Of a DNA stretch of 64,000 bases, positions 1,401 through 35,032 are shown one piece after another. A program made the translations under genes and the position numbers. This DNA comes from Bryoerythrophyllum caledonicum. Its lineage: Eukaryota; Streptophyta; Bryopsida; Pottiales; Pottiaceae. How positions within the stretch are numbered: position 1 is the first letter of the stretch; the number at the start of each line of letters is the position of its first letter. The stretch spans positions 4,624,168 to 4,688,167 of the forward strand of contig OZ020522.1 of the NCBI GenBank assembly GCA_963971425.1, given 5' to 3'. The notes below the pieces were generated by a model. It saw only the letters and a list, made by a program, of their open reading frames with translations, was not told the DNA's origin and did not search any database.

Positions 1401-1496
1401 TGAGACCTGCGAATGCCTGTGGCGGAGTGCATCGGCATTGGTCTCCCAGCTTGGATCCACAATGCCCAAGAGCCAAGGATATTGGTTGCCCACAAT

Positions 1497-1803
1497 CGGC
1501 AAACAAAATGGAAATCGTTACTCCCCACCCCAACCCATTGACCAACAGTGGCGGAACTTCATCAATAACCTAAATCTCACAGATATTCCTATAAACACAA
1601 GATATTCTAGACAAGGAGGATATGATTATAAAGATCCAAGTTTAATAGACGGTTTCTACATACTAAACCTCAATCACGCACGATACACTTGCACAACAAA
1701 AACTAAGATCATTCTAAACTCGGACCACTTTCCAATCCAACTAAATATCCCACAATACATACTCATTGGTAAAACACCCACAACACAAAACAAAGAAAGT
1801 GTT
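1497..1803 (+). pseudogene. APE endonuclease fragment of LINE copy A
   Basis: The frame reads QNGN, YSRQGGYDY, SLIDGFYIL and finally LNSDHFPIQL. These match GRQNGNQN, YSRQGGYNY, SLIDGFYI and SDHSPIQL of copy B. SDH is the C-terminal catalytic signature of APE-type LINE endonucleases. The N-terminal half, including the GDFN motif, is absent because the copy starts here. Later frames (1852-2046, 2250-2430) continue the endonuclease-RT linker with stops and shifts. Confidence 0.8.
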
Positions 1804-2689
1804 TGAATACTTAATCCCATCCCAAAAACTAATGTACAAGACTTCAACAAAGTGTTTTTTGAAGAAAACTCTATACAAATCAACTCCCTTTTTAACTGCC
1901 TAAAAAATAATGAACAGTTCTCTCAAAATCAATGGATTGAAGCTTGCAACACCCTAGACACAATAATAATCAATATCTCCAACATCCTAATGAAAACATG
2001 TAAATCTCCATCCATATCCAAACTATCAAATAGAGCGTCCAAGTAAGAAGGCTACTAATCACAAAAACTCTCAAAAAAGTGGAAACAACACTTAATCACC
2101 TACCATATAGTTCGGAAAACAATTCGTATTGCAAAAAATAATCCACAATGGTTCAATCACCCCATCTGTCAAGAAGTACAAACCCTCCAACATACTCAAA
2201 TCCCGCCCCTACTACCTCCCCATACACCATGAGGTGAATGGCTTTATGATATTGCATTAAGTGCAAAACAAGCTAATAAACAAGCCAAAAAAGAAACTAG
2301 TAAGTATACTAGAGAATTTTTTTTAAAATCCATCTTTAAAAACAGACAACTATATGAAACTAGCCTAAAGAAAATTAATAGAAAAGTCTTCAAAAATAAT
2401 GATTCCCCAACGCTAGATTGCATTACCAACCAACATTACAATATCCTAACTAGCCCTGAAGATATTGCACATGAGATATGTAACCAACAAACAAAAAACA
2501 ATAGACCTATCGTACCCACATGCAACTACTTACCAGACCACCCACCCACATGCACATGTGCGGTAAGACAATACCTATGGCATGACCTTGACGGCTTCAC
2601 TATAGATAAAAGAGGTGACTACAAATCCCTCTACACATTTATTTCAACCAAGCCACATATGATACATGCCTCAAAAATCTAGGAAGCAA

Positions 2690-3815
2690 TAAAGCCCCAG
2701 GGCCAGACCGCATTCCAAATTCCACATTAAAACAAATGCCCCCAAGATTTCATGACCTTCTCTCATTATTCTTCTCACTTCTATATACAAAAAAAATCCC
2801 TGCCTGAGTCATGGAAACTAGTTCTATAATACTCATATGTAAAAAAGGCGACCCCTCAATGCTTTCTAACCACACACAACTTGCCCTAGCCAACACTATC
2901 TATAAACTCTTCACAAGCACATTTACATCCATACTATCCTTATATGGAGAAAAACACCAAATCTATCACGATAGCCAAGAAGGCTTTCGCGTAGAAAGAA
3001 GTACTGCTAGACAACTCTAAACAATTATAGCCGCACTAGAAGATGCACAATTTACAAACCAAGACATATATATTTTGTATATTGACTTCAAAAATGCATT
3101 TGGCTCTATTGACCACGCAAGGCTATTAGCAATTGTGTCTTACCTCGGATACCCCAATGATGCACTTGCACTAGTTGAAAACATCTACTCTCACTTGTCC
3201 ACCTCATACATTGGAGAATATTTTGGAACAACCCACTCCATCCCAATACAACAAGGGACTATACAAGGTGATACTTTAAACCCATATTTATTCATTATCT
3301 TGCTAGAACCACTACTAAGATGGATGCAAAAGGGAAATAACGGATACACCTTTGGAACATTAGAAGTCACTGTTAACTCAACCGCCTATGCTATTGGCCT
3401 CGCTGCCATTGCCGGTGAACTTAAATCACTACAAATCCAACTCAATAAATTGAGAGATTCTGTCAGTGGTCCGGTATGGATGTTGATACTTAAAAATGTG
3501 CTGCCATGGGATGCCCAAACAAATCCAAAATGAACCCCACCGCATTCAAAGCACTCATGCAAGTTACTATCATAAAATATCGTAACCAACCCATCTCCAT
3601 AATACATTAAAACAAACCATACGTGTATCTAGTCATACATCTTGTTCTCTCACTAAAATAGAAGATCCAAACCACACTGCTACCACAAAACTCGCTAAAC
3701 AATGCAAAGAACTAATAACATGCCCGGCCACTATGAAACAAAAAATAAAGATGGTAGACACAGTACTCAGATCCGGAGTAGCATACAGTTTCTACACGGT
3801 CCTATACTCTATGTC
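2690..3815 (+). pseudogene. Reverse transcriptase fragment of LINE copy A, 5' portion
   Basis: Recognisable RT pieces are the fingers region (CKKGDPSMLSNHTQLALANTIY), the EGFRVERST block, YIDFKNAFGSIDHARLL with the first catalytic aspartate, and GTIQGDTLNPYLFIILLEPLLRWM. The YVDD active site of copy B has become YAIG here (about 3387-3400), so this polymerase cannot work. Frame changes occur near 3020, 3075 and 3533. The domain is cut at 3818 by the 3.9 kb insertion and resumes at 7717 with AIKKLDKK, matching AIKKLDQK in copy B. Confidence 0.85.
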
Positions 3816-3818
3816 TGC

Positions 3819-6800
3819 TGTTGCAGTTTGTAGAGACAGTATTCCTCCGGAATGCACTCAATCGTCACTAAATGCTTCCAAAGTAACCGCTCCGGTTTCG
3901 TTCCCACAGAGACCTACTGTTCTTTTCCAAATACTCCGGCTTACTAAATTTATCACAGCAAGTCGTTTATCAGTTAGCTATAATCTTTACTTTCATAATA
4001 ATGGTAGATCTGGATCCTTCCGGAGTCCGGATTATATACAATGGTTTCCGGAAAGTAGTTTCCGGAAGTCGGGAGGGTGGTTTGATTTGTCTTTGTTCCT
4101 CCTCAGAGAGTCTCCTGGAGTTTTTAAGCGAGTGGCCGGAGTCCACTGATCATGTTTTGTATAAGTGGCTGGATTTCCCACTGCCCTGTGACTTAAAGTG
4201 GCTAGGCACCCACTGTCCAGAACTTTATAGTGACCGAACACCACTCTCCCTACACTCCTAACTGAAGATTTGATTGCAACTGCTAGACTTAGACTCTCAC
4301 GACACTCGGAAGGCCTTCCGGATGCGGTCACACAGAGACAAGTTTGGACTACAACGACATTCCGGTAAGTAAGGTTGTGATTCTTTGAAGGAAGACTATC
4401 ATCTGCAATGGGGTACTTGGTCTAGAGTATTGTATTAGGTTTTTTTCCTATCGTGGGGGAAGACTCCGGTCTTGACCAGAATCCAGTTTAAAACGGATTT
4501 CTCCGTGATCTAGAGACTACTAGGAACACCTCTGCAGTTCATCTCTTCCCCTCCTGGCTACTTCCGAACCCTGGAGTCTACCGGGCACACCTCTGCAATA
4601 ACCCTCCAGCTCTCCCAGGCGATCTCCTGACACAACTCTGGACCAGGTTCCCTCTCGCAAAACAACCGTATCACTCCACTCCGGAAGAATACTACGCAAC
4701 CATACACACAAGAATGGATCCGTCGCTCACGAAGTTCCACACATCATCCACAAACACAAGATAGCAAGACTGGTACAAAAGGGTAACGTATAATTCTAAG
4801 TGAGAAGAAAAAGATGAAAGGTTTTTGCCCAAAACCTCACTACTAAGTACTAACTAAGTTCCTTCTAAACTTAGCTTCCTCCTAGCTATCCTACAGGAAG
4901 TCCGCTAGATCTTATCTAAAAGATCCGAGAAATCCGGAAAAGTTCTAGATCGGATCTCAGATCCAAAAATCTCGGAACAATTCTGTCTCTGGAATTCCTA
5001 CTCTAACTACAAAACTGGCACTCGATTCTGTCAGCAGCCGGGTGCACTTGGGGCCCCATCGTTAATTGCTGTTGATCCAAAATCGAAGATCCAAAAAGAA
5101 ATACAAGACCTAACTAATCCTAAGTCGGAGCACCTGGGCCCCAATTTCTCCAACTTCTACGGGAGGGGGAGATCTCCATCGGAGCGCTCTGCTTGCCCTT
5201 CGCCTTCTTCGACGTTGCAGGCGAAAGGTTGGTCTTCCGGGTCGATCGTCCGATCACTGGAGAGAAACAAGCCACCGGAGATCTGGAATCCGGAGGGGGA
5301 GGGGGTTGTTCCGGCGAATCTTTTGGAACAGACGGTGCTGGTGGTTCTGTTGCGGAAGCTGACCTGGTTTCCTAGACCAAGTCCGTGTAGCTTCCGGACG
5401 GACTCCTTAGTCCGGGCGCCAATCTCCGGGACACGAACTTTGGTGGATCCGGGACGTCGCCTTCTGCCGAAGGATCTGGTAGTCGCATGTTGGGTGGCGA
5501 CAATAGATCCGAAAGCTTCTTTAGAATCTCACTCGTACTTGGATTGGGAGGTAAGATACCATCCGTCGGTGTCCGAGGTGACGGAGTGTCGAGAGATTCC
5601 GGATTCACTAAGGTGCCCAGAGCTGGAGTGGTCTTGGTCGGTGGTTCCGGAGGGGCCGTAGTTCGTGTTGGGGTCGTGATGCCGTCCGGTCCAGGTACTG
5701 CTGGGTCTTCAGGAAGCTCCTCGGTGATGTTGTTGACCAACAGCTTCATCAGCCCCCAGGTCCGTCCCATCTTCTCCGCTTGATCCAGGAGAAACCGGAT
5801 GATGTTGGCCCTGGTGACCTTCTCCTTCTTCTCCACCAATTCGGTGAAGAGTTGACTCCGGTTGACCATATCAATTGGCACCTCTAGAGCCTTCCGGACC
5901 TCCGCCAAAGCAGCTGCGGAGGCATTGGCCTTCGCCTCTGCTAGTTTCCAGGTCGTCACCGCCAGAGCTGCTTTTGCGAGGTAGTGCTTCACCTTCTTCT
6001 CCATCTCCGTGTTGGCCTTATACATGGAAGAGATTTGGGTGTGCAGCGCCTTCGTGTCCGCCTCCCGGTTCCGGAGTTCCTCCACCCTGTTGATGGCGTC
6101 CTCCAGTTTGTCAACGTCCAGGCTCCGGAAGATTTGTTCTACGCTGGTGGTGATGATGTAGTTGGTTTCCTTAAGGAAGCCAACTCTCCAACCGATCTCG
6201 CGCGAGAGCTCGTCCATCTGCTGGAGCTAACCCTTGGAGTCCTCCCGGTCGACTTTCCTCCTCTTCCGGCTAGTTTCCGTTGAGTATCCGGACTCATCTT
6301 CTCCGGACGACGCGGATGAACTGCGGATGCCCGGATTCTCCGGCTCAGGCTCCTTTCCCCGAGGTCTCTTCTTAGCCCTCTTGCCTTCCGGAGTTTCTGC
6401 GGGGGTTGTTTCCGGTACCGGCTCCTTCCCGCTGGACTCTTCTTCCTCCGACTCATCACCTCTGTATTTTTGGAAGTTGAGGACTTTGTTGTATTTCCGA
6501 ACCTCCGCCGGAGCTAGCTACTGGTGGTGACAGTAGAGGTGCACCACATATGAGGCCAGAGGTATTGCCGACTTCTTCACCTTCTGGAGATTGGCTACGA
6601 GGCGGTTGATCAGCTCGGTCATGAGCATACCCCAGTCCACGACTATCTTCTCCCGGAGTGCTCCGAGGAAAGTGCAGGCCCACGTCGCCACCACCCGCTT
6701 TGGCTTTTCCGGATGGAAGATAGGGTTTAAAAACCCTAGCACGAGCTGGGCGTCCAGGTGCCGAAGGTCCTGCAGGTTGTAGCCATCCTTCGGGTCCGCC

Positions 6801-7711
6801 GGTCCCGCAAATTCGTCCGTCAGGACCTCGCCCCGCCGTTCCACCACCTTGGGACGGCCGGCCCGGAAGTCGTACGTCTGAGTCCATTCCGGGACTCCCC
6901 TGAATTCCGGATGGGCTCTCATCAACCCCTTGTACTTCTCGTCTGGGTTGCCTACAAGTTTCCGGACGTAGACCTCCTCCCGGATGCCCCAGGGAACTTC
7001 AAGGAGACCCTCGCACCCCATTGTCTTCAGGCTCGCCTTCAGCAGGTTATACTCGTCCATGTCTTCTGGGATGTCCGAAAGAATGCGGGTTAACCGTGGG
7101 AGCGCAATTGTCGGCTCTTCGTCTCTCCGGCCACACCCATCTCTCTCTGTCCTCTTCTTCTTCGCCACAGGTACCGTCTTCATGAAGCCTGCCTATTACC
7201 TTACAGTCTCTCAATGTTGTCCCTGCACGCACCAACCTTACCAAAACTCTCCCTAAGGGACGCACGTCTGTTCTAACCGTCTAAGCGCCAAACCCTATCG
7301 GCCAGCAGTTAGAAAACCGTAAGAGTGAGGGGGAGAGAGACAAAGGGAGAAAGAAAGTGCTGGAGCGGAACTTCAACACGCAAAGAAGAAATAAAAAGAA
7401 AGAGTTTCCCTCCAAACCCCACCCTTAAGTAGTCTGGCCGTTGGTACGACATCATGATGACAGTTGATGGTGACAGTTCCGGCTAACAGTTCCGGATAAC
7501 TAACTGATCCGAAATTCCGGTAACTACTTCGGCTTTGTTTTTAGCAGCATTAGGCTTAATTAGGGTTTGCAGTCAGGTCCATCCGACTTTATTCTTACAT
7601 CAAGACTATAGGTTGTATTCTAGCACGAACTATCGTAACTACTTAACTGATTTTCGTTTTGGCCGGAATTTATCGTTAACTTCCGGCACCATGTGGGGAC
7701 GGAGTCCTACA
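3819..7711 (-). mobile_element. 3.9 kb insertion with TG...CA ends in LINE copy A, carrying a gag-like ORF
   Basis: Copy B supplies the uninterrupted sequence, so the borders are sharp. The host pentanucleotide TCTGC (3814-3818) is repeated at 7712-7716. The insert begins TGTTGCAG and ends GTCCTACA, the TG...CA ends and 5-bp duplication expected of an LTR retrotransposon. The only coding content is the minus-strand gag-like frame at 5372-7183; I see no protease, integrase or RT. I could not find a pair of long terminal repeats by eye, nor a primer-binding site. The sequence is unusually rich in TCCGGA and TTCCGG. A large non-autonomous LTR-type derivative is the best guess; an unusual DNA transposon is the alternative. 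Confidence 0.6.
5372..7183 (-). pseudogene. Gag-like / plant-transposon-protein-like ORF with two in-frame TAG stops
   Basis: A single minus-strand frame runs from a Met codon at 7183 to the stop at 5372 and is broken only by TAG at 6518-6520 and 6232-6234; without them it would be about 600 residues. The N-terminal third (PTIALPRLTRIL, VPWGIREEVYVRKL, FHPEKPKRVVATWACTFLGAL, DWGMLMTELINRLV) resembles the domain of plant retrotransposon gag-region proteins that ends in a helical block after a conserved histidine. A charged Ser/Glu/Lys linker follows, then a long helical coiled-coil segment (about 5700-6200) and a Pro/Thr/Ser-rich tail. No zinc knuckle is visible. It is the only coding content of the 3.9 kb insertion. 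Confidence 0.55.
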
Positions 7712-7716
7712 TCTGC

Positions 7717-8046
7717 TATCAAAAAACTAGACAAAAAATCATAGCCATACAAAAACCCATTTGTGGCCTCCCCAAATGTATGTCAAGTGCCATAATCCAA
7801 CTTCCACATAATTTATTTGGATTGGAAGCTTTTTCCCTAAAACTGCTTACATCAGATGTATGGGGGAACAACTTCAAAATGCACTCAATGAGAGGAGTAA
7901 ACTAGGAAAGATTTATAAAGGGCTCACCCATTCTATTCTTGCCAAATACATTGGTGCTAAAAATATTCCCCGAATCAACAATGCCAATTGTATTAGATCA
8001 TTAATTTCCCCGTACACTCTTTCTACTAAAAAAAGCAAAGTCTACC
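7717..8046 (+). pseudogene. Reverse transcriptase fragment of LINE copy A, 3' portion
   Basis: After the 3.9 kb insertion the LINE reading resumes. Frames at 7693-8057 give GLPKCMSSAIIQLPHNLFGLEAFSL, then GEQLQNALNERSKLGKIYKGLTHSIL, closely matching copy B (GMPKCMSNAITQLPHNLFGLEAFSL). Two frame changes are needed. The segment stops at TTAA 8047-8050, where the next MITE begins. Confidence 0.85.
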
Positions 8047-8050
8047 TTAA

Positions 8051-9197
8051 CCCCTAAAGTTCCTTGACAATTTATGTCCAAAACTAGTCCAAAACTGCCA
8101 TAGTCAAACATGGCCGCAATAATCACATTTTTTAGAAGAATTCTCAACTTTTAACCGTAAGATCTAAAACTAGACTCATGTATAATAATCCTGTAAAATT
8201 TTAGTTGCAATCCACCGCACGGATGTGAAGATTATAGTGTTTGAAGTGCAAGAAGTAGTTATTTTTCCCTCTTGCCCGACAAAGTCAGCTCACTTTGACT
8301 AAGCATATCTTCTAGTATTTATAGTACATTGTGTTGGAAACCATTACCAATGTAAAGAATATGATGTTAGCTAAGTGTGTGCAAAATTTGAAGTCATTTC
8401 GAGGGGTACATCATGCTCAAATAAATACTTTAGTGAAAGGGGGTATAAAACAATGCAAATGACTACAAATGAAGTGAGAAATTATTTGCTAAATATGAAT
8501 TTACAAATTTAAAAATCCGTACGGTTGAAATGTGGAATTTAATTTTTTACTTATTTTAGAGATTTTCTTTTTCTAAAACGGATTAAATCTCTAATTTTAA
8601 TGAGTTTATTGAATTATTCAAATATTATAGGTGAGGGCAGGCTTCAAAATGGGGACCCTTCAAGAAATGAAGGGCCACGTCATTCACCCACTCCCCTGTG
8701 TAGGACCCGTGCAGCTCCTCGGGGGTGGCCCGCCACTGCAAGGCGGCGTTTTTTTTTTTTTTTATTTATTATCACACGTGCCATCTCTTTCAGTACCCAC
8801 AGCCCCTGCCATGCACCACTTTTTGCTATTTTAAAAAAAATTCTATTTATCCCTTTTCTTGGAATTTGTGGGGTCTTCCCTTCCACTATTCCTCCCCTTG
8901 ATTTGGGTTGCCCCACCCTTTCTCCACCCTTTGTGCCCCTACTTACTGCCCCTCTTTCACACTCGTGTTTCATTGGTTCGCAGAGGTGCCCAGGCTGCCC
9001 ATCCTCCCCATTTTTGACAATAGGTGGTACTAACTTTCAAACCGTAAATCCAAAAAAAAATTTAAAAATACCTCCACGAAGCTCTTATGAGGGGCAATCT
9101 AGAATAAAAGTTTTTAAAAAAAAGGATTTTTTTTCGAATTTTAGGAACCTGCCCAAAATGTGAAATCCCCCCGAAGGAGACTCTGGTCCTTTAGGGG
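8051..9197 (+). mobile_element. TTAA-flanked MITE, CCCCTAAAG family, copy 1 (piggyBac-like)
   Basis: The element begins CCCCTAAAG and ends CTTTAGGGG, with TTAA on both sides (8047-8050, 9198-9201). TTAA duplication with C-rich termini is the hallmark of the piggyBac superfamily. It interrupts LINE copy A, and the LINE frame continues on both sides. The interior is AT-rich with a GC-rich core near 8640-8750 and a T-run of about 15. Small ORFs in it are not conserved in frame with copy 2, so it is non-coding and non-autonomous. Confidence 0.8.
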
Positions 9198-9201
9198 TTA
9201 A

Positions 9202-10960
9202 GAGCACATCCACGGACTTTCTCTTAGAGCCCTCATCCCTGGAACAAATGTGGCTACAAGAAACCCAAAATGACAGAAGAATCAACCAACATCTATCCCA
9301 AAAACTCTTACAAAAACTTCTCTCCATAAATATTACTGACTTAAAACAAATCACTTTAACAAACGGAACACACATCATAAATCACAATGACTTCAAAACA
9401 TTCCACGCTACACCATTCAAATTAGTAAAAAGCGCTCTTAACATCACTCAATAACTATTTTGTTACCCCCCATGCACTAATATATGCGCCTCTCCATGTA
9501 CCACACATCCAAACCCCTACACACTTAGAGACACATATGTCACCACCAACAATAATATACATCCCAGGAACAAGCCACCACCAATTCACCCCCCCCCACC
9601 ACATCCATCCCTCCGCCCCCCAATACACATCCTTAGAAACCCATCCACATATTCTATAAATATCATTCTTGACCATAAACACAGAAAATATATTGATTCA
9701 AATTAAAATTATAAAAAAGGATACTAAATATCTATGCCAATGGCAACACAATAAAATACCTATATCAAATGGCTACCTCAACGAAACCTCTACCCATGGC
9801 ATCATCAAAACACTTCCACCTATAATTCAACACAATTAAAACAATATTATCTAAATACTTAAAACAAATCCTACCTAGAAATCATCCAAATACACTACAA
9901 CCAAGAGCAATCTTGTGATTCAAGATTCGTTACTCCACTCATAATCATTCCCCTCCTCAACATATTTACAATCGAATGCAATCACAAAAAAGACATTCTC
10001 GTATAAAAAAAAACAATTAAAATAAATGAAGACCTCCTACATATATACAAAGACAATGGGAGGCACCTAATCACTATTCCCATCACTAGACTATAATGGC
10101 TTTGGAACCAATACCATAACAAATTACAAACTTCCACAAACATAGAACCAACAATCCAACCATTCAAAACTGAAGTAGCTTGGTTATACCAAAGATATAA
10201 ATACAACATCTCAAAAAATGACCCCCTTAAACTTGCACAATACGCATTATCCATGCCCATCCTAGACTTACTAATCTCATCCTCTAACATCCAACATTCA
10301 TATTTCTCATTCCATGTCACCTGCCCCATCCAACTCAATAAATTCCACTTGCCCTTCAAAAGCGACAAAATCTTTGGCTCACTAGGTAACGCCTTTAACT
10401 ACAAATGGATTGGAAATGGTATTGAACACCTCCACAACGCAAAAGAAACGCAACAAGCAATACATTGGGCAAGACTTGCCGCCAAAAATGACTCAAGCTA
10501 CACCTCCACTCTAATTACTACACTAGATAAAAACTAGTACCAAAACTTTAACCCGCACTCAGGCCTTTCGCAGACTCTGATATCATAGCATTATTTGAGG
10601 CAGACTCCGTACCATATGAAGAACCCACTATCCCACTTGAACTAAAAAACAAACCCAAGCTCGAGTCATCTACCATACAAATACTATGCATACACCACCA
10701 AAATAATAACATTGGTAGAATCAAACAACTTGCTACACTTACCACCATAACAAATAACCTTAATGCCGATTATACACAAAAATATGCCGATTATGCCGGT
10801 TATATACAAAAATAGCCCCACCTACACCTTCGCAAACCTTGGAAAATTGGAATAAAAAATGGTCTAAACTTAAATATGCAAACATGGCACAAATCCATTT
10901 CACCACATCAACCCCCCCCCCTCCTACATACCACGCCTATACCCCTTTAAATTCAACCCC
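9202..10960 (+). pseudogene. Linker and pre-RNase H region of LINE copy A
   Basis: Frames at 9248-9454 match copy B (NITDLKQITLTNGTHI against NIFELKQITLPNGTHI). Frames at 10150-10537 match it again (WLYQRYKYN; KIFGSLGNAFNYKWIGNGI against KIFGSLGKAFDHKWVGNGI). The intervening 9450-9980 carries poly-C and Pro/His-rich decayed sequence with many stops. No intact ORF remains. Confidence 0.75.
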
Positions 10961-10964
10961 GCAC

Positions 10965-11400
10965 ATAGTTACTACACAAATGGCTCCTTAAAAGAACCAA
11001 TAGAAGTCAGCGAAGCACACTCACATAGAGAAAAAGTAGGATATGGCATCTATAACCTCACCAAAGAAATTAAAATATCCAAAAGACTACATGGACTTCA
11101 AAATATCCTCAGAGCAAAAATGATGGCCTCTATAAAACTCTCCAAATTATCACTACACAATACACTAATGAACCCGCACATCTTTACATATTGTATAAAT
11201 GTATTGAATCTATTAAACATATAAATAACACATCCTACCCTCCACAATAACCACCCAGACCAAGCCATATTACGAACATCTATGGTTCAATTTCTACAAA
11301 ATCGCAGACAAACTACAACTCTCCATAAAGCCAGCGCACATGTCAATGTAGAAGGGAACGAACAAGCGGATAAACTAGCTAAAGAAGGATAAGGTAAATT
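10965..11400 (+). pseudogene. RNase H fragment of LINE copy A
   Basis: SYYTNGS replaces the SYYTDGS of copy B, so the first catalytic aspartate is lost. KVGYGIYN and KRLHGLQNILRA follow, then KASAHVNVEGNEQADKLAKEG, which matches the C-terminal RNase H motif of copy B. Several frameshifts intervene. Confidence 0.7.
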
Positions 11401-11421
11401 CCGTAGAAATGTCAATCACAC

Positions 11422-12432
11422 ATGAACACGCCCACGCTACCCAATACTACCTCCAAAAAGAAAGTTGGTCTTCCATGGAAGACACCCTGGACAAAGGCCC
11501 CATTAGAGTTTTGGATAAATATCTCAAAAAACAAAGATTTAATTAACAACCTAGATTTAATCTTGGAAAGGTTTCCCAACATAGACAAATCGACCAGTAA
11601 CAACAACATTGACAACAAACTCTCTACAAACTTTTGGAAAAACCCCACAATCACAAGCCCACAAAAAACATGCCTTATCAAATTTCGCACTGGACAATAT
11701 ATGGAAAACGCCCGCAAACAACTCTTCTTTGGAATAGAAAGATTCCAATCCATAACATGCCCAATGTGCACCTCCACGGACCCGGACACATGGCTACACA
11801 TACTTCTTATATGCCGAAACCATCACATACACTCTCTAATCGTAAAATGGCCCAATAAAGCGACATGGAAAATTCGTAAACTAATAAAAACCTCCAATAA
11901 ATCACGATGCTTCACACCCATGAACGTAGAAACCTTCAACAACAAACCAGAAGAAAACACAGACCCTCCATGGCTACTCCCATGCACATGTGGAACCCAA
12001 AGATGTCACTGTAATGCCAAATTTAAGCCAAACATACTATGTGTTAAAGAATTATCATACAAAGACCCCCCATCGGACGACAAAAACACAAACCTTACTA
12101 TCCAATATATTGAATTCAAATATTGTAATGACAAATTTTTTCCACAAACAATTGAAAACAAAATTATTAAGTATCAACCACTTATAAATGACATTGTTGC
12201 CCTAGGCTGGAAGGTTGACCCCCTTATTGTCATCGCCGCTAGAGCCAGAGCCACTACCTTTATCATCTCTATGAAAAATCTCAAAAAAACATTCAATGTT
12301 CCCATTAAACCAATTAAAAAGACATTCACAAAAATCAACACCATGGCTATTCAATATGCAATGTCCTTGCTTATACACAAACAAAAACTTGAAAATAAAC
12401 AACCTCTTCCAGAATCATATGACATCCCTTAA
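11422..12432 (+). pseudogene. Open C-terminal Cys/His domain of LINE copy A ORF2
   Basis: This 336-codon stretch is the longest surviving open frame of copy A. It covers the tail after RNase H: a CPMC...H...C block of the kind that follows RT/RNase H in many LINEs (around residues 113-140), then a second cluster reading CTCGTQRCHC (around 190-200), and a conserved end with GWKVDPLIVIAARARATTF. It is collinear with the end of ORF2 in copy B. The Met at the start is not a natural initiator, because the domain is internal to a polyprotein. Confidence 0.8.
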
Positions 12433-12787
12433 AGACTTCTCAAAGTACACAACTTTCTCATCAAAGTCTTCTCTTGGAATTGGGCCCTGCGGCCTTAGTT
12501 GGTCCTTGGATACTGGTTACTGGATACTAGTCACATAGTGTCTACCTTTGAGAGGGGGGAGTAGTTCCATACTACTAAACCTATGCCCGGTGGACATGGA
12601 TTTAGTAGTGGAATGAAGAGACACTTTACACACTATGCGCACCTCCGGGACCGAAGTTTTTCTTCTTCTAGGCACCACGCCCGCATTTGGACTTGAATTT
12701 ACAAGCACCTCATGGGTATGCATGATCCAAACTAGCACATCGAGGTTGTAATGCCTCTAGAGTTCATTAACAAAGAGTAGTGGCTCC
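12433..12787 (+). other. 3' UTR of LINE copy A, conserved with copy B
   Basis: The block around 12535-12620 (GTGTCTACCTTTGAGAGG, GTAGTTCCAT, AGTAGTGGAATGAA, GACACTTTA) recurs in inverted orientation at about 23397-23505 beside copy B. This confirms the two copies belong to one family with a shared 3' end. Similarity fades after about 12670. No poly(A) tail is evident before the MITE at 12792. Confidence 0.65.
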
Positions 12788-20187: not shown

Positions 20188-20189
20188 AT

Positions 20190-22043: not shown

Positions 22044-22047
22044 GACC

Positions 22048-22450: not shown

Positions 22451-22499
22451 AATGAGAATCCAAGTGGACCGGCCCTACAAAAGAAATAGCTGGTGTGAG

Positions 22500-23505: not shown

Positions 23506-23610
23506 CCACAAACCATAAGACCAATCAATCAAAAGGGGTATCAAGGAAGGGGGGGAAGGGAGGTGTGTTTTGCGGTGTCAGGGTTTTGTAAAAACAAAGT
23601 AAAGGTAATT

Positions 23611-26107
23611 TTATGGGGGATTTTGTGTATCCGGGAGGGCTTGGTTGTTTTCAATTTTGCGTTTGTGTAGAAGGATTGACATAGCATGTTGTATGGCAAT
23701 GATGTTGATATTCTTGAAAGTGTTAGTAATAGTGTCAATAGGGATTTTGAAGGTATCTTCTAAAATTTTTATGGATGGAATAAAGGTGGTGGCACGGACA
23801 CCGGCTGTGATTATAATAAGGGGGTCCACTTTCCATCCGAGGGAAATGATGTCATTTATAAGGGGTTGGTATTTATTGATTTTGTTTTCGATTGTTTCAG
23901 GGGAGAATCTATCAGTACAGTATGTAAATTTGATGAATTGGATGATGTAGTTTTGGTTTATGTGGTCGGGTGAGGGGTCATTGTAGGGTAGGCCTCTAAT
24001 GCAAAGTATGTCCGGTTTGAGTCGAGCATTACAGTGACATCGTTGAGTTTCGCATGTACATGGGAGTAGCCATGGTGGAACCGTGTTTTCTTGTGGGTTG
24101 TTATTAAAGGTGCCGGCATTCATGAGGATAAAACATCTCGATTTGTTATGGGAGGTGATTAGTTTACGAATTTCCCATACGGCTTTGTTATGTCTTTTGA
24201 CAATTAGGTAGTGTATGTGATGGTTATGACATTTAAGTAAAACATGTAGCCATGTGTCGGGGTCCGTGGTAGTGCATATAGGGCATGTTATAGTAGGGAA
24301 TCTTTCTATTCCAAAGAAGAGTTGTTTTCGGGCATTTCCCATGTTTTGTCCGGTACGGAATTTGATAAGGCATGTTATTTGTGCATCGGTGATACTTGGG
24401 TTTTTCCAAAAATTTGTCGAGAGTTCATTGTTTATGTTGTTGTTATTAGTCCACTTTTCTATGTTAGGAAAGTTGTCTGAGATTGTGTCAAGGTTGTTAT
24501 AGAGGTCTTGTTTTTTGAGATATTTGTTCAGGAATCTAATCGGGCCTTTATCGGGGTTATCTTCTTTAGAAGGCCAATCTTCTTTTTGGAAGTAGTATGG
24601 GGTAGCATGAGCATGTTCGTATGGGTCTTTGGCGTTTTTATGTGATTTTTCGCGGCCTTCTTTTACTAGTTTATCTGCTTGTTCGTTTCCATCAATATTG
24701 GCATGGGCTCTAACTTTGTGGAGGGTTGTTATTTGTGTGCGTTTTTGTAGCATTTGGACCATTGATACTAATATACTTTGGTCTGGGTGACTATTGTGGT
24801 GTGTTGGGTGTGTTATTTGGGTATTTAGTAGATAAAGTGCATTTATACAGTCTGTGAATATGTGTGCAGGTTTGTTGTTGTATTTTGTTGTAATGATTTG
24901 TAATGTTTTGTGTATGGCCATAAGTTCGGCTCTAAGGATGTTTTGTAGTCCATGTAGTCTCTTGGCTAATTTAATTTCTTTAATATGATTGTATATACCG
25001 TATCCAACTTTTTCTTTGCGCCAGTTTCCTGGGCTAACTTGTTCAGGTGGTTTGAAGGAGCCATCCGTATAGTAGCTACATGCCGGGTCAAATTTTGGTG
25101 AGGTTAGAGTTTGGTAGTTTGGGAGAGGTGGGGATATCACAAGGTAGTCTAATGTATTATTGGTGTAGTCTAGCTTTGACCATCTTTTACTCCTATTTAT
25201 TGGGGTTAGTATAGTTGTTGGCGGGCCCATTTTTGTGTATAGACGGCGTATGTTTAGGGTGTTTGCTGTGGAGGTGAGTTCGGCAAGCTGTTCTAGGGTG
25301 CCCAGGGTTTGGTTTTGGTGGTGGACACATATTATTTGTAATGTAGATGGTTCAATCCGGGGCTTTTTTAGCTCATGTGGTATGGTGGGTTCTTCGTATG
25401 GTATTGAGTCTGCTTCAAATATTGCAATGATATGTGAGTCTGTAAACGGGTTTGATTGTTGGTTAAAGTTGTGGTACCAATTTTTGTCCGGTGCGATAAT
25501 GAGTGTAGCTGTGTTTTGTGGGTCATTTTTGGCCGCAAGATAGGCCCAGTGTAGTGCTTGATGAGTTTCTTCTTTGTTGTGAGGGTGAGCTATGCCATTT
25601 CCGACCCATTTATGGTCAAAGGCTTTTCCCAAGGAGCCGAATATTTTATCTCTTTCAAAAGGTGAGTAGAATTTTTTTAGTTTGGGGGAGCATGTGACCG
25701 GGGAAGAGAAGTATGATTTTTCGATGTTAAAGGATGAGATTAATGAGTCTAGGATGGGTGTGGGTATTGTGTATTGTGCATTTTTGGGGGGATTATTTTT
25801 TGAAGTGTGGTATTTATATCTTTGATATAGCCAAATTAGTTCGGTTGTGAATGGTTGGGTTATTGGTTCTATGTGTGTAGGAGTTTGTAGTTTCAAGTTG
25901 TATTGGTTCCATAGCCATTGGAGTCTAGTAGTGGGAATCGTGTGTAAATGTCTGCCATTTTCTTCATATAGATGGGCTTTGTTGTTTTCTATTTTAATTG
26001 TGTTTGAGGATGTGAGAATGTCGCTTTCGGGATTACATTCTGTTGTGTAGATGTTTAAGAGTGGAATGATTATGGATGGGGTTACAGATCTTGAATCATG
26101 TGATTGT
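23611..26107 (-). pseudogene. RNase H and Cys/His C-terminal segment of LINE copy B ORF2, open reading
   Basis: Open from the TAA at 26110 to the natural stop. RNase H motifs appear in order: YTDGS (about 25060-25071), RAELMAIH, FTDCINALYLL, and RAHANIDGNEQADKLVKEG. The four expected acidic positions are present. The tail carries CPICTTTDPDTWLH with a downstream H/C pair and a CTCETQRCHC cluster, the latter also in copy A (CTCGTQRCHC). Confidence 0.85.
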
Positions 26108-26721
26108 CCTTAGGGGTGGTGGGCTTGAATGATTTCCGAGTAGAGTTTATTTCTAATTTGTTGATAGTATTGTTTTAATTTTTCGGTGTTATGTGTGGAA
26201 GTATTGTGATCGTGTCTTGGGAAGAGGTTTCTTTGAGGGAGCCATTTGTTGAATGTGTTGTTGTTGTATTGCCATTGGCATAGGTATCTTGTGTAGGTAT
26301 TTTGTATATTGTTGGTATCTAGGTGTTGTATATGTTCATGTTTTATGATGTTACTAATAGGATATATGGCGGGATTTTTGGGGATGTGTGTTGGGGGACG
26401 GGGGTGGTGTGGCAAGGGGTGTCACATGTGGCGGAGCATGTTGGATGACAAAAGAGTTGTTTGGCAATATGTAGGGCACTCTTAATTAGTTTGGATGGGG
26501 TGAAGTGGAAGGCTTTGAAGTCTTCATTATTCATGATGTGTGTGCCATTTGGTAGGGTAATTTGTTTTAATTCGAAGATATTTTTTGATAGGAGTTTTTG
26601 TAGTAGCTTTTGCAAGAGTTGGGCCTTGAGTGTGACATGGTTTTGTCTTTCTTGGTGCCATAATATTTCTAACGATGTTCGATCCAAAAGGAAGTTTGAA
26701 AGTGTACTTTTGAGGTGAACT

Positions 26722-28467
26722 TTAGCTACATTTTTTAAGAGGAAAAGTGTGCAAGTTATTGGTGATCTTACACAGTCCATTTTTTTTAATTCTAGATATG
26801 TTTTCGGCACCTCCATATTGAGCAAGAACATAATGAGTTAGTCCATTGTATATTTTCCCGAGCCTTCCTTTATCGTTTAGGGCATTTTGTAATTGTTCTC
26901 CTATACACCGGAGATATGCATTTTTTAGGGAGAAAGCTTCAAGTCCAAATAGGTTATGTGGGAGTTGGGTTATTGCGTTTGACATGCATTTTGGCATACC
27001 ACAAATGGTTTTTTGTGTGGCAATGATTTTTTGATCAAGTTTTTTGATGGCTAGCATAGAGTATGGTACAGCGAAGAAGCTGTATGCTACGCCTGGTCGT
27101 ATTACGGTGTCAATCATTTTAATTTTTTGTTTCATAGTGGCCGGGCAATTTGTTAATTCTTTGCATTGTTTAATGAGTTTTGTGGTTGTAGTGTGAATTT
27201 GGATTTTCCATTTTAGGGAGGGAACGAGGTTTGTACCTAGGTATACATATGATTCGTTTTGGTGTAGTATGGGGATTGGTTGGCCACGGTAGTTGATGTT
27301 AGAAGCTTGCATTAAAGCTTTAAATGTAATTGGGTTTGTTTTGGATTTATTTGGACATCCAGTAGCGGCGCATTTTGGGACACCTACGTCCATACCAGAC
27401 CATTTGCAATATCTATCTATTTTATCAATTTGTGTTTGTAATGATTTTATGTTGTGAGTTATAATAGCGAGATCATCAACGTAAGCGGCGGAGTTTATGG
27501 TGATTTGTGACGTACAAAAAGTGTATCCATTATTGCCTCGTTCTAGCCATCTCATAAGTGGTTCTAAAAATATAATGAATAGGTATGGGCTAAGGGTATC
27601 TCCTTGTATGGTTCCTCTAAGAATGGGGATAGGTTTAGTTTTACCGAAGTGTTCACCGGTGTAATACGTAGATGATTGTGAGTAGATATTTCCAACTAGT
27701 TTAGTTGCGTCTTTTGGGTACCCAATGTCAATCATTATTGCTAATAGTCTGGCGTGGTCTATAGAGCCAAATGCATTTTTAAAGTCAATATATAATATAT
27801 AGATGTCTTGATTTGTGAATCTTGCGTCTTCTAGTGCCGCTATTATGGTTTGTATTTGTCTAGATGTACTTCTCTCTGCTCTAAATCCTTCTTGACTGTC
27901 ATATAGGATTTTGAACTTTTCACCATAAGAGGATAGTATTGAAGTGGGTGTTTTGGTGTAGAGTTTATATATTGTATTGGCTAATGCAATTGGTCTATGA
28001 TTTGGTAGTATTGAAGGGTCTCCTTTTTTGTATAGTAAGATAGGGGCACTTGTTTTCCATGAGGCTGGTATTTGTTTTTGTTTATAGCAATGAGAGAAGA
28101 ATATAAATATTAGTTTATGGAATCTTGGAGGCATGTTTTTGAGTATGGAGTTTGGTATACGGTCTGGCCCTAGGGCTTTGTTATTTCCGAGGTTGCGGAG
28201 GCATGTGTCATATATGGCTCTATTGAAGTATGTATGTAGTGGGGTTTCAGGTTCGCCACGTTTGTCTAAGATAAATCTGTCTAGATCATGCCATGGATAT
28301 TGGCGTATTGCACATGTACATTCGATTGGGTGTTGTGGGTGGAAGTTACATATTGGTACTGTGGGTCTATTGTTTTTTGTTTGTTGGTTGAATATTCTAT
28401 TTGCGATGTCTTCCAGGCTCGTTAAAATGTTATTATTTTGGTCAGTGATACAATCTAGTGGTAGAGA
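26722..28467 (-). pseudogene. Reverse transcriptase segment of LINE copy B ORF2, open reading
   Basis: Sense codons are uninterrupted from 28467 to 26722. The region holds GPDRIPNS, LLYKKGDPS, NHRPIALANTIYKLY, EGFRAERSTSRQ, YIDFKNAFGSIDH, GTIQGDTLSPYLFIIFLEPL and the YVDD box. All three catalytic aspartates are present (two in YVDD, one in YIDF), so the polymerase core itself looks intact. Confidence 0.88.
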
Positions 28468-30519
28468 TTATAGTTTTTTAAAAACTCTTCTATTTATTTT
28501 CTTAGGGTTGATTTCGTATAATTGTCTGTACTTTGAGATGGTTTTTTTGATATTTTCTTTGGAGTATTTTGTGATTATCTGTCTGGCTTGTTTGTTGGCG
28601 TTTTTTGCGATTAATGCAATGTCTCTTATCCAGGTATTGTGGGATAAGTCCACGGGGGGTGGGGCAGGAATTTGGGTGTGGTGCAAATTTAGTAATTCGT
28701 TACATATGGGATGGTTACGCCATAGTGTGTTATTTTTAACAATTCTAATAGTTTTCCCTATTATATGGTATGTAGCTAGTTGTTGTTTCCATGTTTTAGA
28801 GAGTTTTCGGGGTAAATATCCACCTTGCTGTGATGTTCGGTTTGTCATTTCTGGTATTGGTTGGGCTTTACAAGTTTGTTCTAATGTATCGGAGATACTG
28901 CTAATAATTGTATCTAGGGTGTGGCACATTTCGTGCCACTGTAATTGGGAGAGTTGGTTTTTATTTTCAAGGATATTAATGAGGGAATCAATTTGTATGG
29001 AGTTTTTTTCAAAGAATTTTGTGTTAAATTTTTCTAGGTTATCTTTTGGGATGGGGTTAAGTATTCGTATGGTGGTGTTATGTGTGTTTATAGGGGTCCG
29101 ACTGATTAATGTGTTGTTTGGGATGTGAAGTTGTATGGGTGAGTGATCCGAGTTGAGAGTAATGTCTTTATTTGTTGTGGAAGTGTATTGTGTATTACTA
29201 TTTGTGTTTATGTAGAATCCGTCTATTAGGCTCCAATCACCATAGTTATAGCCACCTTGTCTGGAGTATTGTGTGCCCGTGTTTATGTAGGTGAAGTTTA
29301 GGTTTTCTGTAAAGTGGCGCCATTGATAATCTATGGTTTGAGGGGGGGTGTTTTGATTTCCATTCTGTCGACCAATTAATGCTATGTCTCTGTTGAAATC
29401 TCCACACAACATATAAGTGTGATTAGGGTTATTGTTCATATGAGATGTGATAGTGTTTTGTATGTCTATAGTGAATCTAATATCTTCGGGGTGAGACGGC
29501 ATATACATGTGAAAGATTAGCCATGGTTGTAGTGGTTGGTTGGTGATTCTAATTATTTGGAGGTATGGTGATATGTGCATTGGGGTAGGGTTTTTTTTAT
29601 GTTACCCGGGAAGGCATATTTTTTGTGTATTAGTACAAGGAGGCCGCCGTGTCCTGGTGTGTATGGCCTTTGTTGTTGGATGCATCTTGTTAGTGCGTGT
29701 GTATTATTAAAAATAAGTTTATAGTCTTGAAAAATGTTTTGTATGTATTTAATAGATTTTGAGGCGGATAATTTTGTTTCTTGAATAACTATGATGGTTG
29801 GTGGCGTTTCCGTGTATGTGGTTAAAGCTTGTAAGCTGGATAGAGCAGTGTTTAAAGATGCCGCATTCCATGTTATGATGTTTGTATTTTCGTTGTTTAC
29901 GTTGGTGTTCTGGTTCTGTGGGGGGAGAAAAGAGGGGGGGTGGATGTGTATATTCTATTAAAGGGTCGAAACACTTTAGTGTCTCGTTAATAAGATTGTT
30001 AGTAAGGTACGGGAATTTTTGTTTTATTACGTCGTTTGGGGGTGGTATGTTTTGGCTATGTATGAAATTGTATAATTCTATATGTATTGATTTTCCGTGG
30101 TTTATAATATTTTGATTTTCTTCACTAAATTTTGTGTATGGGTGTGGGGTATGAATATGTCTTTCTGGTGGATTTTGTAAGTTTGATAGAGTTTGTAACA
30201 GTGTGTCGGTCCATGTAACTATATTCGGGTTTTGTGTGTTTAAGAGATGATTACACATGTCTATGTTAGGGTGGGTGGTAATTACTAGGGCGTATAAAAT
30301 ATGTGATGGTGGGTGTGTATATTTTTGTTGTATATATTGGGCAATATTTGGATGTGTGATGTTGTGTATATGGTGTAGTGTATGTGTGTTTACCAAAAGG
30401 GGGGCAAATGTTTGAGCGATGTGTTTGTATTCTAGTTGAAGTTTTATGGTCTTTGGTATAAAGTATATTTTGGCATTTTTCTTGTGTCAAGTGGGATGTC
30501 TTTTTAGTATATTAGGCAT

Positions 30520-30549
30520 TGGTCCTGGGTTGGTTTCTATGTCTCCACT
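30520..30549 (-). other. 2A (StopGo) translational recoding motif at the ORF2 N-terminus
   Basis: Codons 30549 down to 30520 read S-G-D-I-E-T-N-P-G-P, an exact match to the 2A consensus D(V/I)ExNPGP, preceded by the hydrophobic ILILL typical of the upstream helix. The motif ends 29 residues after the ORF2 Met (30606). Established knowledge: at this motif the ribosome skips the Gly-Pro bond and releases the upstream peptide, and 2A motifs occur in ORF2 N-termini of some animal and trypanosome LINEs. Inference: here it would trim a short leader from the ORF2 protein. Confidence 0.85.
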
Positions 30550-30902
30550 TAACAATATTAGGATTTTCAGGTGTTTTAATTTGTTGTTATGTTTTGGTGT
30601 TTTCATTGTTTATGTGTAATTTTTTGTGGTTTTTTTGTGTTATTTGTGTTATGTTTGTTTAAGAGTGTGTGTGTGTTTTTGTTTGAGTGTGTAGTTGTTT
30701 TTGAAATTTCGTTTATTGTTAGTGTATAAATGATTAATGTGAGGTGGGTATTGTAAGTTTTTGGTTTCGTACTAGTACGTGGAGTTCTGTTTTCTCTTGT
30801 GATTATGAGTTTTATTTTTTTTGTATATTTTTTGTGTGGTTGTATGTTTGGTTTTGTTCTCATGTATTTTTTTGTTTTTGTGTGTGATTGTTGTTTTATA
30901 TT

Positions 30903-31468
<566 letters not shown>

Positions 31469-31469
31469 G

Positions 31470-31615
31470 ATAGTATATAAATATACTAAGTTTTTTTTTT
31501 TGTTATTTTTTGGGTATATAATAAATACTTTTAGTATATAGATATACTTTGTTTTTTTTTGGGTATATAATATATACTTTAGTATATATATATACTATAA
31601 TATTTTTGTTAATTG
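31470..31615. repeat. AT-rich palindromic repeat next to the CAA tract
   Basis: Two or three imperfect copies of a unit containing GGGTATATAATA(A/T)ATACTT and a T-run, each with the self-complementary AGTATATATATATACT-type core. It could form small hairpins in the inter-ORF RNA. Function is unknown. Confidence 0.6.
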
Positions 31616-31633
31616 TAGCGTTGTTTGACGCTA

Positions 31634-33220
31634 TTAGTTTGACGTGTCCATCTTGTTTTCAATGGCTCTATGCTCACGCTCCAATGCTTGTGTTTCTGCT
31701 ACCATGATGGTTGCAATGAGTTGGGATCGAAGAGTTGTCATTTCACCTCTGAGGGATTTTATCGTGTTCGTTTGCACCATGTCTGCGTACTGTCTTGCTT
31801 CTTCAACAATGTCCCCTTTCATGGTATTCATTTCTTTTTTGAGTTGTTGGAGGGTGACCCCATTACCTTTGTTTGGGCCGTTTTCCATAGCTATTACCGC
31901 GTTTGCGACCGCCGAGTTTACATCCGTGAATCCGAGCCGTGTTAATTCTTCAGTGCTAGGTTTGTTGCTACCATCTAGGCTCTTGGGGTGGGGGGTGAAC
32001 ATTATGTATTTATCGTGGAGTTTTTTACTTTGTTTGACATATTTTTTGTATACAGCCGCATTTAGACATTCTATATTGCAAGTTCCCACATGTCGGCCAT
32101 GTTCGAGTTTGAAGAATGTGTCCACTACATTCTCCTCCCCAAGTAAGGATTTTATTCCCTCTACGAGTTCTTTTTCGTTTTTTGTTTTGTTAAGGTTTTT
32201 CGCAATTAGAATTAGGCAATTCTTCTTTGCAATCTCATCCTCATCCATTTTCCGGGTTGCAAAAATGGGTACAAAGATCTCATAGTAAAATGAGATTTTG
32301 TAGTCCTTTATTTTTGCTGCTTGTTCCGGGGAGGGAGTTTTGACCCATGCAAACTCTGAAGAACACTTCTTTTCTACCCCAGTGACTTCGAAGTCATAAC
32401 TCCTGAGAAAACTATCTTTCACAATCTCCTCATGTAAGCTGAATGGTTCTATGTTGACAAGGTTAAGACCGGTTATCTTTATTGATAAAAGATGTGGAAA
32501 AGCCAAGGAATCGTATGACTTGTATACTTTTCCTTGGTGTGGTATTCCTTCATTAAGGATAAGGATAAAGGGCCTTAGTCCTTGTAACAATCCTTTGGCA
32601 TCCGTCTCTGGGTTTTCAAGATGTAATTTTACCACACCTATCCAATTATCGGATAGGTGGTGGCAAAATATGGCAATTGGCTCGCCAATGCCTGTTCCTA
32701 AGGGAATACCCATCTCTTTTAGTCTTGTTTTCACCATGTCTAGCACAACATGTTTTGACCATATTTGACTTCCTATTTCAAAGTGGATAGAGATTTGGTA
32801 ATCCAAGGCAAAGCCATCTTTATCCACCTCAACTTCACTTGGAAGTTGGGTGAGATTAAAGTGGTTTCCTTCCTTCCCATCGGTCCTTTTATAGGGCCAT
32901 TCCTCTTGAGGGATAAATGGGAATGAGGGCATTGCCTCACAGCTTTCAGCTGCTTCTTTTTTATCCATCCCCCGCTTCACCATTTCTTCAATGGTGACAC
33001 TGGGAATTTTTTGACCTCCATTTGTTTTTTGGATTATGTTCATTGTTTGAAAGCCCAACCAGTACTTTGTTGAAAACAAACTTGTTGCTTTCACCTTTTT
33101 CTGGGTGGTACTTGTGATAATTAAAGAGTTTTGGTTTGCATTCACATTACTGGGATTTTCCTCAACCACATCAATAAAAAGGCGCTTGGAAGATGAGGCA
33201 ATAGTTTGTGGCTGAGACAT
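31634..33220 (-). CDS. LINE ORF1 protein (RNA-binding/coiled-coil type), apparently intact
   Basis: Open for 528 codons from the Met at 33220 (MSQPQTIAS). The frame is open further to 33565, but that extension is Cys/Ile-rich and unlike the rest, so I chose the internal Met. Residues about 170-290 (IGVVKLHLENPETDAKGLL) and about 310-410 (NCLILIAKNLNKTKNEKEL, then CNIECLNAAVYKKYV) look like two RRM-like alpha/beta modules. The last 80 residues are a predicted coiled coil (LQQLKKEMNTMKGDI, LRGEMTTLRSQL). By analogy with other LINEs it would coat the element RNA as a multimer. It sits directly upstream of ORF2 on the same strand. Confidence 0.75.
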   Translation of the reverse strand: MSQPQTIASSSKRLFIDVVEENPSNVNANQNSLIITSTTQKKVKATSLFSTKYWLGFQTMNIIQKTNGGQKIPSVTIEEMVKRGMDKKEAAESCEAMPSFPFIPQEEWPYKRTDGKEGNHFNLTQLPSEVEVDKDGFALDYQISIHFEIGSQIWSKHVVLDMVKTRLKEMGIPLGTGIGEPIAIFCHHLSDNWIGVVKLHLENPETDAKGLLQGLRPFILILNEGIPHQGKVYKSYDSLAFPHLLSIKITGLNLVNIEPFSLHEEIVKDSFLRSYDFEVTGVEKKCSSEFAWVKTPSPEQAAKIKDYKISFYYEIFVPIFATRKMDEDEIAKKNCLILIAKNLNKTKNEKELVEGIKSLLGEENVVDTFFKLEHGRHVGTCNIECLNAAVYKKYVKQSKKLHDKYIMFTPHPKSLDGSNKPSTEELTRLGFTDVNSAVANAVIAMENGPNKGNGVTLQQLKKEMNTMKGDIVEEARQYADMVQTNTIKSLRGEMTTLRSQLIATIMVAETQALEREHRAIENKMDTSN

Positions 33221-33565
33221 TCTATAGAAAAGAAAGATGAGAGTGTTACTATCTAGTTTGTACAATGTTACTACCGTTTTTCTCCTTATCATCTTGATCT
33301 TAACATCTCCCCTCAACATACATTGAGGGCTTGTTGACATTAAGATTTTCAAGAAGGAGTAAGATATGGCAATATTAACATTGTTCAAACAATACATTTG
33401 ACAATAAACTTCAAAGGGTTTGAGAGAGTGATTAGTGCTATGACTTATAACAAATATTGCACATACACACACACGAGAGGTGCCACAATGGGGGTCACCT
33501 CTCCAAGTAACATGATTTAATAATGAAATTTGAATACATGCCCATTGGTTTGCATAATAAACCAA

Positions 33566-33829
33566 CTGATAGCAATGATCATAAAACTTTAAGGGAGATA
33601 GAAGGGTATAACCTGAATGTACGGTTTCGAACTGAGGTATTTTTGTACTGGAACGACTTGTACTTCCCTTGCCCCCTTGCTCCCGTAACTCCAGTTTACC
33701 TTCAGTAGGTTGCCGCCTGTTGCAGCCGCCCCAACGTTCTCTGGATTCCTTGCCCTTTCCCTTCCTCGCGCCGGTGCCTTGTCCGCCTTTGTTTTCTTGT
33801 GTCTACGGACTGCCTACCTCTCCCTTAGG
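33566..33829. other. Probable 5' border region of LINE copy B
   Basis: The composition changes here from the AT-rich LINE 5' leader to GC-richer sequence. No promoter or target-site duplication could be identified. Nothing coding is convincing. Confidence 0.35.
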
Positions 33830-34090
33830 TCGCAAGTCAGCCCTGCCCTCACGCGAGCTGCCCTTCTCTACCCGATGGTGCGAGTCGGGACTGCTTACGC
33901 GCGGGTTGTCCTCCTCTTCCCGTGGATGCGAGACGGCACTGCTTGCGCTTGGGCTACCTTCCTCTTCCTGTAGTCTCGAATCGGGACTCCGTGCACACGG
34001 GCTGCCCTCCTCTTCCCTTTGTCTTGGTTCGGCACTGCTTGCGCTACAGCTGCCCTCCTCTTCCCGTAGTCTTGAATTTGCACTGTTTGC
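33830..34090. repeat. 48-bp coding-like minisatellite
   Basis: About five units of 48 bp. The period is a multiple of three, so both strands give 16-residue repeats: minus strand GKRRAAVAQAVPNQDK-type, plus strand PSSSRSLESALLA-type. The minus-strand version continues towards the basic ORF at 34118-35032. Whether either is translated is unclear. Confidence 0.65.
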
Positions 34091-34117
34091 ATACGACTTT
34101 TGAGGTCGGCTCCCCTT

Positions 34118-35032
34118 CTATTGTCGGTGGTGTGCGCAGATCTTGTTCGGGTGTGCCTTTGAGATGATGTGGGCTGCGGGGACTACGTTGTCGGTGAGTC
34201 GGGTTTGTGGGTCAGTCTCAGATGGCCCTTTCCCTCGCTCTATTCCCTCCTCGGTGGTCTTTAACGTCCAGCCTTCAAAGTCTGCACCTTCACCAACTAG
34301 TTGTTGAGCTTGTGTGAATGGTTGCGCCTGTGAACGCCTTCTGTTGGGTCTGGGTGTCGGGGTGGTTGCCTGATTCCTCGTCTCCCTTGGACTGCGGATC
34401 TTGTGCAGTAGGTTGGCACTCTTCTTTCTAGCTCGGTGGACTCCTTCTGGCTTCATCACTTCGTCTCTCGACTTCAGGTGGACGCAAGCGTGAGCTGGTA
34501 TCGGCGGTTGTTGCAAGTTGTACCTGTGAGAGGTTGCCTGGATGATGTGGGCTATTTCTAGGTAGTGTGCAACTTTTTCGTCTTCTTCTGCTCGTACTGT
34601 CTGTTCGTTTTTTCTCCGGCCTTGTATGATCTTCGTGTCTCTTGCTCTCTGGATCGTGATCTTCAAGTGCTCTTCTGAGTTTGCTTCTCCCTTGCCTCTA
34701 TTGTATTTCACCTTGTGTCCATCGCTGCTCTCCTTGTGCTGTGGGTATGTAAGAGGAGGGGGGTTAAAACATGCAAGGTATAATGTGTAGGTGACCGTGA
34801 GGTACCGAATTTGTGTTGTGCATGCGGATCTAGTGGTATAGACATAACATAAAGGTAGATAACAAAAATGTAGGGTTAGATGTACTTCACTACTGAAGTG
34901 ATTTAGTCTGGGATCGAGGAAGGTCGGCGATCTTCTCCAGGGCTCGTATCTTCGTGTTTGCACCTGCCTGCGCCTCCTCTCTTGTTGGTGTCGCTGGTCC
35001 GGTCTCCTAGAGCGGTCAGTGTTGTACTCCAA
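34118..35032 (-). CDS. Arg/Gln-rich hypothetical ORF
   Basis: A 304-codon frame, strongly basic (Arg, Gln, Lys, His), with no recognisable domain. A hydrophobic patch (about residues 53-90) looks non-coding or intronic, so the true gene, if any, may be shorter. It shares composition with the minus-strand frames of the duplicated block at 35.4-38.9 kb. Possibly a transposon-associated protein, but composition-driven openness is a serious alternative. Confidence 0.25.
   Translation of the reverse strand: MEYNTDRSRRPDQRHQQERRRRQVQTRRYEPWRRSPTFLDPRLNHFSSEVHLTLHFCYLPLCYVYTTRSACTTQIRYLTVTYTLYLACFNPPPLTYPQHKESSDGHKVKYNRGKGEANSEEHLKITIQRARDTKIIQGRRKNEQTVRAEEDEKVAHYLEIAHIIQATSHRYNLQQPPIPAHACVHLKSRDEVMKPEGVHRARKKSANLLHKIRSPRETRNQATTPTPRPNRRRSQAQPFTQAQQLVGEGADFEGWTLKTTEEGIERGKGPSETDPQTRLTDNVVPAAHIISKAHPNKICAHHRQ

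Follow-up and report, generated by a model that had tools for sequence, protein, structure and literature searches.

The StopGo (2A) consensus that the original prediction placed ahead of ORF2 of an APE-type LINE is real, and relatives of the element keep the motif. It lies on the minus strand of the window (the whole 64-kb stretch of DNA analyzed here), in a copy, now decayed, of an APE-RT-RNase H LINE family that probably uses StopGo translation. The 2A site in this family is, by its sequence, very probably functional. We put forward tentatively, as one possible reading, that StopGo serves a land-plant LINE lineage as a means of splitting a polyprotein: at a single 2A site, or at two in tandem, a long low-complexity leader in frame with ORF2p would be cut off from it, so that each ORF yields two or three products. 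This would constitute natural, selectively maintained StopGo in plant genomes.

A StopGo consensus at the ORF2 boundary

Positions 30606-30520 of the minus strand (a strand had not been given before) translate as MKTPKHNNKLKHLKILILLSGDIETNPGP, 29 residues ending in GDIETNPGP; the predicted leader with an exact 2A consensus is therefore present, and its core octapeptide DIETNPGP matches D(V/I)ExNPGP exactly. The first codon behind the site is the ATG (30519-30517) of MPNILKRHPT, which is followed by a TGA (30489-30487), also found as predicted, and then by HKKNAKIYFIP. Release is predicted between GGA (30523-30525) and CCA (30520-30522). In a six-frame scan, NPGP occurred once in the 64 kb, the remaining matches being bare NPG. 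The residues at p6-p11 are LILLSG, and by sequence this context, with SG before D12, fits the L-rich StopGo class, in which upstream motifs end in (A/S/C)G before D12 (Li, 2026; PMC12846837). The hydrophobic run expected just upstream of the motif is there, but it is five residues long in this copy (ILILL).

Conservation of the site among relatives

Two homologue searches were made: one with the region 29749-30606, the TGA being read as Trp, which gave 50 proteins among 234 candidates, and one with a read-through query scored on residues 1-345 and with longer candidates, which gave 13 among 1346. All 63 proteins were examined, and the site was placed by the residues behind it only, the 2A itself not contributing. 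The site region is present in 59 of the 63, the other four (P0047, P0048, P0049, and P0081) starting beyond it. Ten of the 59 begin exactly at the Met behind the site, with nothing visible upstream, and two more, P0038 (7 upstream residues) and P0027 (10), are without a 2A and apparently out of frame; these twelve were left out, and the counts are based on the remaining 47, in which both the site and residues ahead of it can be seen.

The exact motif D(V/I)ExNPGP is found in 37 of these 47 relatives and a His-14 form, DIHPNPGP, in two; NPGP is kept in 42. The eight sites that are neither canonical nor His-14 have NPRP (two), NLGP (two), NPSH with DIK, GHIE, DIK, and DTAH (one each). Among the 13 proteins of at least 700 residues the site is in view in 11, nine of them exact and two with DIHP, and when duplicated upstream cassettes and P0027 are added to the count, the motif is exact in 38 of 52 sites. 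In alignment A2 (40 rows: the window and 39 of the 63 relatives, chosen by us) of the 244 windows of eight columns, the seven that vary least are all found within GDIETNPGPMPNIL, with a mean entropy of 0.29-0.37 bits against a median of 1.35. Position p11 is Gly in 46/47 relatives; every row that extends to p7 and p8 has Leu, Ile or Met there. A Met stands directly behind the site in 46 of the 47, P0079 having Lys after NPGP. Compared with the first aligned sequence, the relatives have 36-89% identity in their N-terminal regions. On this comparison of sequences the 2A is a feature of the LINE family and not of one copy. The original prediction had proposed a search for the motif in other copies of the genome; it is kept in the relatives, but these are database proteins, with sources mostly ENA and JGI, and not copies from the window's own genome.

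Two relatives have two 2A sites each, P0077 with GDVEPNPGP and GDIHPNPGP, and P0078 with GDIHPNPGP twice. At the first site of P0077 the 2A is intact, and behind it stands a duplicated piece from the beginning of the N-terminal domain that is much decayed (score 88); by eye, P0078 has the same arrangement. Duplicate upstream cassettes with a broken motif were found in P0007, P0014, and P0080. Across the five duplicated cassettes (four scored, that of P0078 by eye) the motif is kept in two and lost in three, so that these cases are few and mixed.

Architecture and decay of the window copy

By the sequence matches summarized in Table 1, the element is an APE-RT-RNase H LINE.

Table 1. Positions in the window of the LINE features and of a second copy of the family.
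Feature	Positions	Strand	Remarks
Second copy of the LINE family, interrupted	1495..12669	+	about 71% DNA identity
3' part of ORF2	23611..26109	-	one open frame to its stop
RNase H	24652..25077	-	
PCIF1_WW (Pfam) segment	25600..25878	-	between RT and RNase H; 40.9 bits, cut-off 31.1
Reverse transcriptase, RVT_1	26722..28467	-	94 bits
APE-type endonuclease region	28468..29919	-	in two frames; frame changes ~29.86-29.92 and 29.6 kb
ORF2p N-terminal domain	29960..30519	-	MPNIL directly after NPGP; contains TGA 30487-30489; extent from P0016 model
StopGo/2A core DIETNPGP	30520..30543	-	L-I-L-L-S-G ahead of it
29-codon leader, window copy	30520..30606	-	ATG 30604-30606 overlaps upstream-frame TGA 30603-30605 (ATGA)
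ORF1-ORF2 spacer, 1,027 bases	30607..31633	-	(CAA)n-type array 30872-31467; frame open 31502 to TGA 30603
ORF1, 528 aa	31634..33220	-	ATG 33220, stop 31634, no internal stop

ORF1 is modeled as an RRM fold with a long C-terminal helix, in keeping with the RNA-binding fold and coiled coil looked for in an APE-type LINE. The N-terminal domain of ORF2p is all-helical in an AlphaFold2 model of the relative P0016, in which the folded domain is predicted to begin about 9 residues after the break between NPG and P. The APE match of the window piece reaches 24.1 bits, below the Pfam cut-off of 27.4; four of the seven relatives scanned reach a Pfam cut-off (P0070, P0077, P0078, and P0079), and a profile made from alignment A2 matches exonuclease III (E 7e-4). 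The best PDB sequence matches of the RT are R2 (E 7.5e-29) and then LINE-1 ORF2p. For the PCIF1_WW segment, no literature pairing "non-LTR retrotransposon" with "PCIF1" was found. An Rfam search of positions 20000-36000 at E up to 1 returned one match, far under its gathering score (19.6 vs. 100 bits). The (CAA)n-type array of the spacer, about 600 bases on the LINE strand, is open over nearly all its length in all three minus frames, and immediately ahead of ORF1 (33862-34090) stand GC-rich tandem repeats of 48 bases, perhaps 5' UTR monomers.

The window copy is dead. The TGA behind the 2A had been taken as the only lesion nearby, but there are also frame changes at about 29.86-29.92 kb (N-terminal domain/APE) and near 29.6 kb, an in-frame stop at 28468-28470, and further frame changes at about 26.7 and 26.1-26.3 kb. 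Nor is the proposed origin of the TGA by deamination of CGA upheld, since the relatives vary at this position, with no Arg in the closest two full matches (P0001 and P0024). ORF1 is open throughout, as against the several lesions in ORF2 of the same presumed element. The second copy of the family says nothing on the 2A, because its homology begins inside the APE and the copy is hence without the 2A region.

The host looks like a land plant, judging by the genes in the window. This is supported by an NPR1-like gene, as NPR1-type proteins are to our knowledge plant-specific: the best match of its BTB exon (46349-46888 on the plus strand, residues 24-174) is NPR1, with E 2e-11, above all animal BTB chains. 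The gene, which could presumably also be named BOP-like, spans 46349-48182(+) and has the BTB exon followed by an ankyrin exon, so that it contains at least one intron. By eye, two further long open frames, 5372-7192(-) and 60532-62343(-), have the look of transposon genes; the latter gave no Pfam match.

The leader upstream of the 2A

Ahead of the Met behind the site, 44 relatives have 25 or more residues; in these, the open frame continues upstream of the 2A region for 8-885 codons, 8146 codons in all, 489 of them Tyr. The 15 of the 59 outside this count are the ten starting at the Met, P0027, P0038, and three with fewer than 25 residues. The open upstream codons have a mean of 185 and a median of 124, whereas a mean of 53 or 23 is expected from the stop rates of the window spacer (1.85% for the whole spacer, 4.24% for its non-repeat part; P about 1e-25 or less), the proteins being gene-caller output and the expectation using the composition of the window, which may not be that of the relatives. 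A stretch of about 90 residues ahead of the 2A aligns gap-free in 8 of 13 rows of one subfamily, two rows having gaps and three starting inside.

Short and often repeated elements occur in the leaders, SAYRPRH-like in nine proteins and ARPTGLAH-like in nine others, never both (P0005, P0028, P0035, and P0069-P0074; P0007, P0008, P0009, P0031, P0032, P0040, P0050, P0075, and P0080). Back-translation indicates that both could be readings, in two different frames, of one GC-rich 20-base DNA word. In the seven proteins with more than one copy, all copies matched by our own patterns, of which that for the third frame is narrow, are in one frame; a shared frame is expected if the leader is translated. 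The word is possibly an RNA or DNA element within a leader that would be translated. It is absent from the window at up to 5 mismatches.

In the window copy the leader ATG shares bases with the TGA that closes the upstream frame (ATGA), an overlap which may be decay; this frame is not continuous with the 2A. The similarity of the window leader to the leaders of P0001 and P0024 was reached by 18/300 and 16/300 shuffles, respectively, and in different frames; not being convincingly above shuffles, homology to these leaders was dropped as evidence. The native product is probably not this 29-residue leader but a longer one, because the frame is open so far upstream in the 44 relatives. We infer that the 2A is internal in working family members, where, to judge from the relatives, what it separates from ORF2p is more likely a long and basic leader that evolves fast.

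Translation of ORF2 and alternative explanations

Under StopGo translation, the ribosome would translate a basic, low-complexity, fast-evolving leader and then the L-rich 2A peptide; the leader would be released after NPG, and translation would resume from the Pro to make an ORF2p that starts with a compact helical domain ahead of APE and RT. Leader and ORF2 would thus form one polyprotein with ribosome skipping at the site, and its purpose would be the freeing of the ORF2p N-terminus.

In the window copy there are lysines, a short hydrophobic run and an ATG that lies 29 codons upstream, and the gene calls of 8 of the 47 relatives begin only 12-35 residues ahead of the Met behind the site, all of which would suit a short N-terminal, signal-like leader, skipped off or retained to send ORF2p elsewhere, like the 2A signal sequences of sea-urchin NLRs; a dual-targeting 2A signal sequence is known (PMC4981915). 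We nevertheless regard such a role as unlikely, as the open upstream frames of the 44 relatives mean that the 2A is not N-terminal in most of them, and the hydrophobic run here is a mere five residues. The 29-residue targeting leader of the original prediction is doubtful, the 2A being internal where the frame continues upstream; the window copy could fit such a leader, but a signal-peptide role is probably not general in the family.

The Met behind the site in all relatives except one, together with the ATGA stop-start overlap in the window, might instead suggest that ORF2p begins at the AUG behind NPGP by reinitiation or internal initiation, the upstream peptide being incidental. The context of this AUG is poor, however, with C at both -3 and +4, the 2A peptide is among the least variable columns of the alignment, and P0079 has Lys in place of the Met; ORF2p is therefore very unlikely to begin in this way, although termination-reinitiation at an overlapping stop and start is known for SART1 (PMC5972666). 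A relic or a chance run without any role in a dead element would agree with the state of the window copy and with a second copy that is without the region, and yet this is hardly credible when the motif is conserved in relatives with N-terminal regions as far apart as those aligned here. Chance as the origin of the motif was rejected because relatives picked out by their similarity across the entire 285 residues of the region retain it.

Comparison with known systems

StopGo is treated as a virus trick that is rare in cellular genes (PMC12846837). A conserved 2A in a plant-lineage LINE would, if true, mean that plant ribosomes naturally encounter StopGo signals. Co-expression work could then draw on 2A sequences native to plants, and one could study in a natural context how a LINE benefits from a freed ORF2p N-terminus. 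The tandem sites and long leaders of the relatives suggest polyprotein processing in non-LTR elements.

The work of Odon in 2013 reportedly described 2A encoded by APE-type non-LTR elements of multicellular organisms, the species being animals; the 2A on an APE-type LINE is shared with those elements, whereas the host here looks like a plant. Cellular proteomes are said to have been scanned by Rao in 2025. Among the literature matches listed, no title named a plant LINE 2A. The trypanosome element L1Tc, which we take to be a single ORF that lacks a separate RRM-type ORF1 and has its 2A close to the N-terminus, differs from the window LINE, in which a separate ORF1 lies upstream, and from the relatives of that LINE, whose leaders are long and of which two have tandem 2A sites. 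The likeness between the two lies in the APE, RT, RNase H, and 2A, the last of which is active in L1Tc of Trypanosoma cruzi (PMC4748587).

The 2A signal sequences of sea urchin NLRs resemble the LINE site in having D(V/I)ExNPGP behind an N-terminal stretch; they are N-terminal, mostly predicted signal peptides of host immune genes, whereas the LINE 2A is internal in most relatives and belongs to a transposon. Their skipping works in N. benthamiana, and 2A functions in plant cells, as has been reported (Roulston, 2016; PMC4981915). With the L-rich viral StopGo classes 2 and 6 the LINE family shares an LLLLSG-like hexapeptide, the D at p12, and the His-14 variant, which in the viral study was over 95% active in reticulocyte lysate (Li, 2026; PMC12846837). 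Those StopGo sequences are from RNA viruses, and for plant viruses the same work, a large survey of viral sequences, reports no evidence of natural StopGo, six matches being judged host misclassification (Li, 2026; PMC12846837). StopGo in a LINE is thus known in kind, and what is apparently new in the present family is the host and the arrangement.
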